Shown: in pieces, positions 33,371 through 36,525 of the stretch
Position numbering within the stretch: position 1 is the stretch's first letter
Layout of the letters: every line of letters starts with the position of its first letter
Assembly (NCBI GenBank): GCA_902524235.1
Contig: CABZCF010000001.1
Location: 62,001-126,000 of the forward strand
Direction: 5' to 3'
Source: an uncultured Pelagibacteraceae bacterium
Lineage (GTDB): Bacteria > Pseudomonadota > Alphaproteobacteria > Pelagibacterales > Pelagibacteraceae
Length of the DNA stretch: 64,000 nucleotides
The notes under the pieces: generated by a model
What the model was told of the DNA's origin: nothing
What the model saw: only the letters and a program-made list of their open reading frames with translations
Database searches by the model: none
Made by a program: the position numbers and the translations under genes

Positions 33371-33690
33371 CTTACATAGTTAACGATAAATGTATAAAAT
33401 GTAAACTAATGGATTGTGTCGAAGTATGCCCAGTTGATTGTTTTTATGAAGGAAAAAATATGCTTGTAATTAAACCTGATGAGTGTATAGATTGTGGCGT
33501 TTGTGAACCTGAGTGCCCTATAGGTGCAATTGAACCAGATACAAACAAGGGGACAGATAAATGGCTTCAGATTAATAAACAATATTCAGATGTTTGGCCA
33601 AATATTAAAGAAAAAAAAGAAAGTCCTTATGGAGACAAATTAAAAGATGAAAAAAATAAATTTGAAAAATATTTTGAAGAAAACCTTTAA
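33367..33690 (+). CDS. fdxA: 7Fe ferredoxin (FdxA type)
   Basis: 107-residue electron carrier. Cysteines 9, 12, 17, 21 and 25 and the second set 40, 43, 46, 50 ([12 protein letters not shown]) match the alphaproteobacterial seven-iron ferredoxin with one 3Fe-4S and one 4Fe-4S cluster. The C-terminal extension (about 60-107) is charged, as in the family. ATG overlaps the TerB-like gene by 4 bp. Its last 44 bp overlap the start of the CarD gene in another frame. Confidence 0.95.
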
Positions 33691-34495
33691 AAAAAAGAAG
33701 AATAAACAAATTAAATCTATATCTGCAAAAAAAAAATCTAATAATCCTATAAAGTTAAACAAAATAGCCAAAACCGTAAAATTGAGAAAAAGTAATAACA
33801 AAAAAGTTAAAGACGATAAAAAAATCAAACAGAAAAAAAGTGAGAATAATCAACAAAATTTAAGACTTACTAAAAGTATTGCAGATCAAAAACCTGAGAT
33901 TAAAAAAATAAAAAAACAATCTACTGAAAAAAGGGTTTACAAAATTAAAGATTATGTCGTTTATCCTAAACATGGAGTGGGTCAAATTTCTGAGTTCAAG
34001 AAAATTAGTATAGGTGGAATTGATGTAGAGACTTACATCTTAAAATTTGAAAAAGATAAGGCTAGCGGAATGATACCCGTTAATAAACAGTCACATTTGA
34101 GGCCATTAGCAACAATAAATCAAATTAACAAATGTGTAAGTATACTTAAAAGCAAGCCTAAAATTAAGAGATCCATGTGGAGTAGAAGAGCACAAGAGTA
34201 TGAAGCGAAAATTTCATCAGGTAAAATTTATGAGTTAGCAGAAGTAGTTAGAGACCTAAATAAAGGTGAAGATCTAATGATCGACCAATCCTATAGTGAA
34301 AGACAGCTATTCGAGAAAGCGTATGAAAGACTACTTACAGAATTTCAAATAGTGTTAGGCACAAATTTAGAGAATACTCAAAAAAAATTGGATAAAGCCT
34401 TAAAGCGGAATTTAGATAAAGAGAATCCTAAAGAGGTTAAAGTCAATACAGAGGAAAAAGTAGTTGACACTAATGAAGTTTCTGAGAGCGTATAA
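33647..34495 (+). CDS. CarD/CdnL-family transcription regulator with lysine-rich N-terminus
   Basis: RNA-polymerase-binding regulator that stabilises open promoter complexes. The CarD domain spans about residues 96-255 ([59 protein letters not shown]). The first 90 residues form a poorly conserved extension with about 33 lysines and are probably unstructured and nucleic-acid-binding. No ATG exists between residue 1 and the domain, so the start at 33647 inside fdxA is the only ATG option, although a TTG near residue 46 is possible. The stop codon lies in the U-tract of the opposite-strand terminator. Confidence 0.92.
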
Positions 34496-34530
34496 AAAAA
34501 CGCTTCCCACGCAATCGCCATGAGAAGCGT
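34494..34530 (-). terminator. rho-independent terminator of the 23-residue basic peptide gene
   Basis: On the minus strand the stem pairs ACGCTTCTCATG with CGTGGGAAGCGT over 12 positions around a 7-nt loop, followed by six T. Two of the pairs are G-U in minus-strand RNA but would be C-A mismatches in plus-strand RNA, so it is a minus-strand terminator. It lies 27 nt after the peptide stop codon and its T-tract overlaps the carD stop. It is the clearest intrinsic terminator in the window. Confidence 0.9.
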
Positions 34531-34556
34531 AATTATTAAAGAAAAAGAATACTAAA

Positions 34557-34628
34557 CTATCTTCTTCTTCTTTTCTTAGCCTTTTTAGCTTTCTTTTTCT
34601 TTTTAGCTTTTTTTCGTCTTTTAGCCAT
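34557..34628 (-). CDS. 23-residue Lys/Arg-rich micropeptide
   Basis: The ATG at 34628 begins MAKRRKKAKKKKK and the frame closes with TAG after a run of Arg; 18 of 23 residues are Lys or Arg and the remainder are Met and four Ala. Support for translation is strong: a GGGAG ribosome binding site 6 nt before the ATG, a TTGACA promoter element upstream and a dedicated terminator downstream. The composition resembles the Ala/Lys-rich tails of histone-H1-like and ribosome-associated basic peptides. It probably binds nucleic acid, but no function can be assigned. It is too short for ordinary gene finders. Confidence 0.75.
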   Translation of the reverse strand: MAKRRKKAKKKKKAKKAKKRRRR

Positions 34629-34648
34629 TTTTAGCTCCCTTGTTTTAC

Positions 34649-34664
34649 GAATCATTATTGATTC
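34649..34664 (-). promoter_or_regulatory. 5' UTR hairpin of the basic peptide gene
   Basis: GAATCA-ATAA-TGATTC on the minus strand forms a 6-bp stem with a 4-nt loop, about 10 nt upstream of the ribosome binding site at 34635-34639. It may stabilise the short mRNA or control access to the ribosome binding site. Confidence 0.4.
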
Positions 34665-34676
34665 GCGCATATATAA

Positions 34677-34705
34677 TTTTTATTTTTTTTAATTAGTTAT
34701 GTCAA
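34677..34705 (-). promoter_or_regulatory. putative promoter of the basic peptide gene
   Basis: A consensus -35 box TTGACA (34705 down to 34700) is followed after 17 nt by a weak -10 TAAAAA (34682-34677); a TTATAT lies 6 nt further. The surrounding spacer (34629-34815) is nearly pure A/T and otherwise empty. Spacing is right but the -10 is poor, so confidence is moderate. Confidence 0.4.
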
Positions 34706-34815: not shown

Positions 34816-36525
34816 TTATTGGTAAAGTTTTTCAATTGAATTTTTATATTTTTGAATAATTTTAAATCTTTTTAACTTTAAAGTTGGTGTCAACATTCCA
34901 TTCTCGATTGAAAATTTTTCATTAATTAAAAAATATTTTTTAATTTTTTCAATTTTTGATAAATTATTATTAATTTTTTCAATTTCTTCTTTAATTTTGA
35001 CTTTATCTAAATCTTTTTTGTCATCACTTAAAGCTAACAATGCAATTAAATAAGGTTTGTTCTCTCCAAATACAATTGCTTGATCAAAAAGATTTGAATT
35101 TATAATCTCATTTTCAATCTTTAAGGGACTTATGTTGTCACCTCCAGGTGTAATTATAATATCTTTTTTTCTGTCAGTTATCTTAAGATAATTTTTTTCA
35201 AACACTCCAATATCTCCTGTGTGTAACCATCCATCTTTCAAAACTTTATTGGTCTCTATAGTATTATTCCAATAACCCAACATAACATTTTCGCCTTTAA
35301 CTAATATTTCTCCATCCTCAGCTATTTTGACCTCATTTCCTTTAAATGGAGGTCCTACCGTATCAACTCTTATGTCGTCTATTGGATTGCAGCTTACCAC
35401 CGGTGAGGCCTCTGTTAGACCATAACCTTGTAAAGTAGGCAATCCTATTGCATTAAGAAAATAACCAACTTCTTTATCCAAAGCACCACCGCCTGAAACA
35501 AAAGTTTTAATAGACCCCCCAAATTGTGCTTTAATTTTTTTTCTGATTATTTTATCTAGTAGGAAATTTTGAATTTTTTCAAAAAAATTCAAAGGTATTT
35601 TTTTATTTTTTTTTAAACCTAAACTAATTGTTTTGTTTATTAACACTTTTTTAACACCCTTTATTTTTTCAAAATTAGAATTTATCTTTTGAAATAAATT
35701 TTGATAAAATCGTGGAACAGCCGTCATAATATCGGGGGAACAATCATTCATATTCTTTATCAATTTTTCAATACTTTCTGCATAAAACACTTTTGCATTT
35801 ACACTAACCTGAACAAACTGGACAGTATGCTCATAGGAATGAGATAGAGGTAGCCATGTAAGAAATTTCGGATTATTATTTTTAATTAGCGGATTTAAAA
35901 GTTCAATTGCTCCCTCGCAATTATTTAAAATTCCACCATGACTTAACATAACACCTTTTGGATTCCCTTGTGTCCCTGAAGTATAAATTATGCAAGCCAC
36001 ATCTTTTCTATTCAAATTAGATGAAAAATTAAAATTGTTATCTTTTGTTTCAATTATTAAATTATTTATATTTACATAACTCTCAGGATCTAAATCTTCT
36101 ATTTTTTCAAAAGAAAATATCTTTTTTATAAAATTTTTTTTTTTTACTAAATTTTTTATCTTATTAAATTGTTCATTGTTTGAAACGAATATAACTGATG
36201 GACTGCAATCATCAATAATGTACTCATAGTCTTTCTCGATATAAGTTGTATAAGCTGGAACAGTAATTGATTGTGAAAGCATGATTGACATATCAGAAAT
36301 AAACCACTCAGGTCTGTTTTCAGATATTAGTAAACATCTATCACCTTTTGTAACAAATTTGCTCAGTTCTGTAGAAAGGATATTAATTGATTTAAAGACT
36401 TCTAACCAACTATAACTTTTTTTTGGCTCTTTAAGATTTGTTAATAGAATTTCATTCTTATCTTTTAGTGACAAATATTTTTCAAAGAAAAGCTGATTTA
36501 GATTATTAATATTTTTTATGTTCAT
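34816..36525 (-). CDS. long-chain acyl-CoA synthetase (AMP-forming)
   Basis: Activates fatty acids to acyl-CoA; COG1022-like membrane-associated ligase of 569 residues. P-loop YTSGTQGNPKGVMLSH about 181-196, the GYGLTEASPV motif near 367-376 and the GWLHTGDIG/DRKKDIIITPGG region near 428-455 are present. It lies just downstream of tRNA-Leu on the same strand (7 bp). No other beta-oxidation genes are beside it. Confidence 0.9.
   Translation of the reverse strand: MNIKNINNLNQLFFEKYLSLKDKNEILLTNLKEPKKSYSWLEVFKSINILSTELSKFVTKGDRCLLISENRPEWFISDMSIMLSQSITVPAYTTYIEKDYEYIIDDCSPSVIFVSNNEQFNKIKNLVKKKNFIKKIFSFEKIEDLDPESYVNINNLIIETKDNNFNFSSNLNRKDVACIIYTSGTQGNPKGVMLSHGGILNNCEGAIELLNPLIKNNNPKFLTWLPLSHSYEHTVQFVQVSVNAKVFYAESIEKLIKNMNDCSPDIMTAVPRFYQNLFQKINSNFEKIKGVKKVLINKTISLGLKKNKKIPLNFFEKIQNFLLDKIIRKKIKAQFGGSIKTFVSGGGALDKEVGYFLNAIGLPTLQGYGLTEASPVVSCNPIDDIRVDTVGPPFKGNEVKIAEDGEILVKGENVMLGYWNNTIETNKVLKDGWLHTGDIGVFEKNYLKITDRKKDIIITPGGDNISPLKIENEIINSNLFDQAIVFGENKPYLIALLALSDDKKDLDKVKIKEEIEKINNNLSKIEKIKKYFLINEKFSIENGMLTPTLKLKRFKIIQKYKNSIEKLYQ

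Follow-up and report, generated by a model that had tools for sequence, protein, structure and literature searches.

A 72-bp open reading frame on the minus strand of the window, by which we mean the whole stretch of 64,000 nucleotides analysed here, is, on comparative sequence evidence, a genuine small-protein gene of the Pelagibacterales, the SAR11 order, whose bacteria are very abundant in the ocean. The sequence-only reading had described a lone peptide of 23 residues; this has to be corrected, because comparison across loci places the peptide among the shortest members of a family that spans the order and ranges from 21 to 91 aa. As to function, we lean, with slightly better than even confidence, towards a minimal polycation for nucleic acid that resembles histone H1 or a protamine and has DNA as its most likely partner. 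The elements on which the earlier proposal was built, namely a 72-bp gene with 18 Lys/Arg in 23 residues, a TTGACA box with a weak -10, a 5' hairpin, a GGGAG site 6 nt before the ATG and a terminator stem of 12 bp, were reread and recomputed, and all of them stand (Table 1).

Table 1. Features of the basic ORF and its neighbours (positions in the window)
Feature	Position	Strand	Remarks
-35 box TTGACA	34700-34705	minus	read directly from sequence
Weak -10 box TAAAAA	34677-34682	minus	17-nt spacer from -35 box
Predicted transcription start	~34668-34670	minus	placed by promoter spacing alone
Predicted 5'-terminal mRNA hairpin, GCGAATCA / TGATTCGT	34647-34666	minus	8 bp, outermost pair G-U, -8.8 kcal/mol
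Shine-Dalgarno GGGAG	34635-34639	minus	6 nt before ATG
ORF for 23-residue peptide MAKRRKKAKKKKKAKKAKKRRRR	34557-34628	minus	72 bp, ATG...TAG; 18 K/R of 23
3' untranslated stretch with TTTAGTATTCTTTTT	34531-34556	minus	predicted pairing to Lys codons of its own ORF
Intrinsic terminator	34494-34530	minus	12-bp stem (within 34500-34530) and 7-T tract 34494-34500
carD, convergent	33647-34495	plus	Pfam PF02559 (CarD_TRCF_RID) and PF21095 (CarD_C)
Long-chain-acyl-CoA-ligase-like gene	34816-36525	minus	other flank of basic ORF; name presumed from likeness

Within the window, the frame stands apart. Among the 878 ATG-started open stretches of at least 15 aa on both strands, nested starts counted, it is the only one that reaches at least 50% K/R, and its composition is therefore not a product of chance. 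The T tract of its terminator overlaps the carD stop codon. The transcript from 34490 to 34670 is computed to fold at -47.1 kcal/mol (z -5.35), and none of 200 shuffles folded as well. A longer start, which would give a 37-aa ORF from 34670, was rejected, because the conserved ribosome site belongs to the internal ATG and the expected transcription start coincides with the upstream one. A scan of the window with Rfam covariance models at gathering score returned three tRNAs only and no match at this locus. Amino-acid attenuators are likewise built from a short ORF full of one residue class, the leader peptide, followed by a terminator. Attenuation was rejected here, since carD is convergent, homologues reach 91 aa, and no gene-sized ORF lies on the minus strand from the basic ORF down to 31000.

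How widely is the gene kept? Homologous loci were found with CarD as the anchor, so that copies elsewhere in the genomes are invisible to the survey. CarD was matched in 50 of 61 genomes (the window's own and relatives), the 11 without a match being mostly incomplete, and a genome scan confirmed 159 CarD stretches, the best 80 of which were used. Together, 30 loci of the window's genus and these 80 Pelagibacteraceae records make up the close relatives (L001-L110); 20 loci of a second family (L111-L130) and 18 of other genera (L184-L201) complete a set of 148 Pelagibacterales loci. Conservation of start, frame and terminator in other SAR11 genomes had been set beforehand as the sequence part of the test of the proposal, and the gene passed this part: an intact homologue convergent to carD is present in 141 of the 148 loci. 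The seven misses comprise six loci that run off the contig and one frame-shifted copy, which leaves 141 of 142 among loci with enough sequence. In the close relatives, for which the 80 scan records are the best of 159, the basic ORF lies opposite the carD strand in 106 of 110 loci, and the four without it have 86-134 bases left before the contig end. Its position is shared by two families, with genera g1 and g5-g11 in one and g2-g4 and g13 in the other. The frame-shifted copy, in L184, the sole g12 locus, breaks after a run of eight A, which may reflect sequencing error, decay or slippage. Across the 141 loci, 82 different coding sequences specify 60 different peptides. Shared ancestry and a degree of redundancy keep the counts from being independent: L052/L055 and L058/L059 each represent opposite ends of a single contig, and some genomes may be present in both collections. 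By contrast with the order, nine CarD loci from other alphaproteobacterial families have no basic ORF within 380 bases downstream (225 in L208). A phage origin was rejected after a scan of viral contigs with one ribosome-site-plus-start pattern had given 0 matches. Two side observations concern carD itself. The single contigs behind L052/L055 and L058/L059 carry it near both ends in opposite orientation and are probably amplification chimeras of single-cell genomes, and in L030 (genome G032) the carD match holds 11 stop codons next to an intact basic ORF.

The variation among homologues is that of a translated frame. Lengths differ by whole codons, with K/R at 53-86%; the 34 distinct peptides of the 106 close-relative loci, 21-30 residues long, consist, apart from the initial Met, of K, R, A, T and P alone, although 54% of weighted one-step nonsynonymous changes would have led to a stop, to D/E or N/Q/H, or to other residues that are neither A/T/P/S/G nor K/R. 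Values of pN/pS range from 0.05 to 0.65 in all ten length classes with at least three sequences. Lys-Arg swaps are frequent in the codon list of the homologues, which suggests that charge rather than residue identity is kept. The longest A run averages 7.2, against 9.9 in synonymous shuffles, and is below the shuffle mean in 80 of the 82 distinct coding sequences. As a control, 21 other Lys-rich 27-codon stretches gave 8.0 against 8.04 when shuffled (8 of 21 below); these come from the window's long open frames and hold 9 or more Lys each, the gene's 27-residue homologues holding about 15. Of the gene's 12 Lys codons, 4 are AAG (33%); the share is 29% among its homologues, compared with 12.7% for the 50 long open frames of the window. 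We read the avoidance of A runs as selection against slippage during translation of the frame.

The signals ahead of the frame are kept with it. Of the 141 loci, 131 extend far enough upstream to include the -35 box; at the matching place, 128 of these have TTGACA and 3 have TTGACT. CGAATC, the 5' arm of the leader hairpin, is present in 136 of 141 loci, the other five being cut by contig ends, and in 130 of these 136 it sits 38-42 nt after TTGAC. At that distance the hairpin would lie only a few bases from where the transcript is expected to begin, so that it should form a 5'-terminal stem. In 126 of 136 loci, GGAG and ATG are separated by 6 nt. Given 37 bases, each of the 80 distinct leaders has a predicted fold no weaker than -4.5 kcal/mol; that of L200 reaches only -3.0 kcal/mol when given 30. 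Loop length varies, and in genera g5, g6, g7 and g11 the unchanged 5' arm takes part in another stem, so that an RNA hairpin is favoured over a DNA operator. Sliding the hairpin by 1-3 columns lowers the share of paired cells to 22-43%, from 93% in register. A covariation test on 25 of the 80 distinct leaders, a set without the leaders that form the other stem (g5, g6, g7, g11), found compensatory base changes in 1 cell only, which 238 of 500 shuffles reach; the core stem is too constant for such changes to be visible. What favours RNA over DNA is thus the variation in loop and stem and not covariation.

Searched as an exact pattern, hairpin plus ribosome site occurs in 273 of 397 genomes of the order (the pattern backwards in 2 of 397), in 114 of 151 near-complete ones and in 7 of 13 genera, the misses including incomplete genomes and genera whose leaders deviate from the pattern. 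At the level of the class it occurs in 31 of 289 genomes (backwards in 8 of 289), two of them Pelagibacterales (G000, G062). The 29 matches outside the order were taken for chance; the surroundings were read for one, G629, whose loop resembles SAR11 loops but whose match lies on another contig than its carD. CGAATC-N(3-8)-GATTC has one other place in the window's own genome (C2:52218-52236). The second family (L111-L130) has a further conserved stretch in its leader, CCTCTAACTAAACCC...GGGGGGAG, which could pair with the ribosome site and hide it.

At the other end of the unit, the terminator had been held to act on the gene's strand only. It is indeed predicted to be stronger in the gene's sense, at -16.4 against -9.9 in the other direction for the window and at means of -16.2 against -10.7 over 137 of the 141 loci, but the restriction to one strand may not extend to the whole family: 29 of the 137 loci have 5 or more A at the stem foot (17 of 137 were unreadable by script), and in those 29 the terminator could work both ways. 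With start, frame, ribosome site, hairpin and terminator all conserved beside carD, the sequences support the proposal that a translated Lys/Arg peptide has a transcription unit of its own here.

Between stop codon and terminator, TTAGTATTCTTT recurs in 90 of 106 close-relative loci and the full 15-letter TTTAGTATTCTTTTT in 70 of 106. The pyrimidine-rich stretch that holds it is present in a longer version, TTTTTCTTT, in the window and the nearest loci, L031-L033, which also have a longer Lys run in the ORF. In the folded transcript, this 3' element is predicted to pair with codons for Lys and Ala in the ORF itself. Its pairing surpasses that of 95% of shuffled 3' stretches in 67 of 72 distinct pairs from close relatives, in 11 of 16 from the family's other genera and in 1 of 18 from the second family. 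Native ORF/3' pairs exceed the expectation from both partners by 1.07 kcal (78 of 88, with the second family excluded), a figure confounded by relatedness. When the ORF is shuffled synonymously, pairing is about as good (median rank 0.57), and codon order is thus not selected for 3' pairing. The element is a possible self-pairing control element. Conceivably, the locus might instead make a noncoding or dual-function small RNA whose ORF is incidental or secondary, as its structured transcript, the complementarity of 3' element and ORF and the surplus of the native pairs would allow. We consider this quite improbable, given the in-frame length changes, the residue classes, the pN/pS values and the avoidance of A runs, the equal performance of synonymous shuffles, and a pairing that weakens in other genera and is absent in the second family.

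What might such a peptide bind? Among the 34 distinct close-relative peptides, 21 start with MAKRRKK and all 34 end in four K/R residues of which at least two are R; small residues lie three or four apart in 95 of 119 spacings, and aromatic and glycine residues are missing. Homologues of genus g5 have 36-38 aa and those of g7 37-58 aa; the second family's, of 40-91 aa, start with MEELK or MEDLK and continue with KKAKKKAAPKKK...KPAKK repeats. With their KKKAAPKK and KPA repeats, the longer homologues look, by composition, like histone-H1 tails, of which the close relatives would keep the short end. A search of Pfam and NCBIfam with two short and two long homologues gave 0 families at E up to 1, HMMER scoring low-complexity chains poorly. 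Size and charge, as well as the recurrent start and end, would also fit a micropeptide associated with the ribosome or other RNA, placed on rRNA or mRNA rather than DNA like the tiny basic ribosomal proteins of the bTHX type. This is possible but in our view unlikely: the range of 21-91 aa across the order is unlike a fixed ribosomal slot, the close relatives lack aromatic and glycine residues, and a family match is missing, although for so short a chain this is a weak test. The evidence fits DNA, RNA or the ribosome as partner alike, and charge alone suits several partners. Of the partners named by the sequence-only reading, nucleoid and ribosome are compatible with what the sequences suggest, whereas polyphosphate is disfavoured. 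In 41 genomes, own and relatives, PPK1 was found in 11 (among the 16 with a completeness of 90% or more, in 4) and PPK2 in 0, and the complete genome G012 has the peptide (L017) without either enzyme. Because the search turned up a polyphosphate kinase in only a minority of the genomes, polyphosphate is a most improbable general target, even if the H1-like AlgP associates with polyphosphate granules, according to the part of its description consulted (PMC9239181).

How might a minimal H1/protamine-like polycation work? We envision a free and presumably unstructured product, in composition a cut-down C-terminal tail of histone H1, that would bind DNA, and perhaps RNA, by charge. Screening of backbone phosphates would then tune the compaction and accessibility of the tightly packed nucleoid. 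The gene's own promoter would give a short mRNA whose decay the 5' hairpin is expected to slow, and a strong ribosome site together with its own terminator would be an arrangement suited to high steady output. We infer nucleic-acid binding and the nucleoid role, and likewise transcription and expression level, from sequence features. HU/IHF-type genes are present in 31 of 31 genomes, and the peptide would therefore act beside HU/IHF. Its likeness to H1 is partly a matter of composition, since the tails of the neighbouring CarD proteins show that Lys-rich stretches are common in the clade.

In the window, that tail is N-terminal, Lys-rich and ~97 residues long (33647-33937, plus strand). Across Pelagibacterales it has 56-133 residues with 32-46% K/R in 71 of 76 loci, those with an in-frame Met; the other five (L021, L030, L129, L187, L197) are cut, damaged or lacking a start, and the set of 76 takes in only 8 of the 80 genome-scan loci. 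The same stretch has only 4-11 residues in nine of nine CarDs of other alphaproteobacterial families. In L129, KKKAAPKK repeats occur both in the CarD tail and in the neighbouring basic peptide. Long tail and basic micro-gene thus share one taxonomic range in the sample, which includes nine outgroup loci, and confinement to the same clade means that the pair may act together. Free peptide and tail might form a two-part system, either acting at shared promoters or competing with each other for DNA. The near-complete linkage of the two genes, broken only by the frame-shifted copy, would agree with this, as would the long tails set against the short outgroup stretches and the repeats common to both proteins of L129. 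We nevertheless find a CarD partnership doubtful: the loci were found through carD, so that unlinked copies would be missed; the genes are convergent and share no promoter; synteny can persist in streamlined genomes; and both stretches are of low complexity. Similarly speculative is a fuller scheme, in which an H1-like tail would carry CarD, an RNA-polymerase activator, along AT-rich DNA, a free 'micro-H1' of 21-91 residues would set the charge screening of the nucleoid, and the micro-H1 mRNA would be tuned by its leader hairpin, to which the window's lineage would add base-pairing between the 3' end of this mRNA and the Lys codons that it carries.

If the peptide is a nucleoid polycation, as we favour, it would to our knowledge be among the smallest known, and chromosome packing in a very small cell would become directly testable. 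The finding further highlights a CarD variant that bears a histone-like tail. Though kept at nearly every locus with adequate sequence, the gene is easily missed by annotation, as neither Pfam nor NCBIfam has a model that matches it, and in proteomics trypsin would chop its Lys/Arg chain into small fragments. No description of it was found in the open-access literature, judged by titles and the starts of abstracts, and the portion of text covered of PMC2704228 contains neither 'carD' nor 'lysine'. As far as the consulted parts of two related articles go, active SAR11 promoters have been mapped (PMC5069720) and 6,675 Pelagibacter candidate antimicrobial peptides have been listed (PMC10491242).

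In being a Lys/Ala(/Pro)-rich polycation of repeat-variable length, here 21-91 aa, the SAR11 family matches the bacterial histone H1-like proteins. Protamines of eukaryotic sperm are likewise very short and made of nearly pure basic residues; in the SAR11 peptide, however, Lys rather than Arg dominates, and we claim no homology. The ribosomal bTHX peptide has about 25 residues and is very basic, whereas the length of the SAR11 peptide is not fixed and no family matches it, 23 low-complexity residues giving HMMER little to score. The chlamydial histone H1-like proteins Hc1 and Hc2 are Lys-rich too and, in the part of the source consulted, Hc2 is given as 165-237 aa with a size that varies by repeat number (PMC2848022); the SAR11 peptide is shorter and, unlike them, matches no Pfam or NCBIfam model, low-complexity chains being a weak point of HMMER. 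Another close parallel is AlgP of Pseudomonas, whose C-terminus, in the consulted part of its description, resembles H1 with a KPAA tail, predicted to be disordered, peptides of which bind DNA (PMC9239181); this tail and the similar one of PhaF share the Lys/Ala/Pro-rich, H1-like repeats of the SAR11 family. The same source gives AlgP 352 aa, with a helical N-terminal domain of 124 aa ahead of the tail, and describes it as needed for the even spacing of the granules with which it associates (PMC9239181). The SAR11 family, in contrast, does not consistently co-occur with polyphosphate synthesis, and its longest homologues place only about ten residues (MEELKVIFAKA or MEDLK...) and no helical domain before the tail, so that what AlgP carries as an appendage stands alone in SAR11, down to a length of 21 residues.
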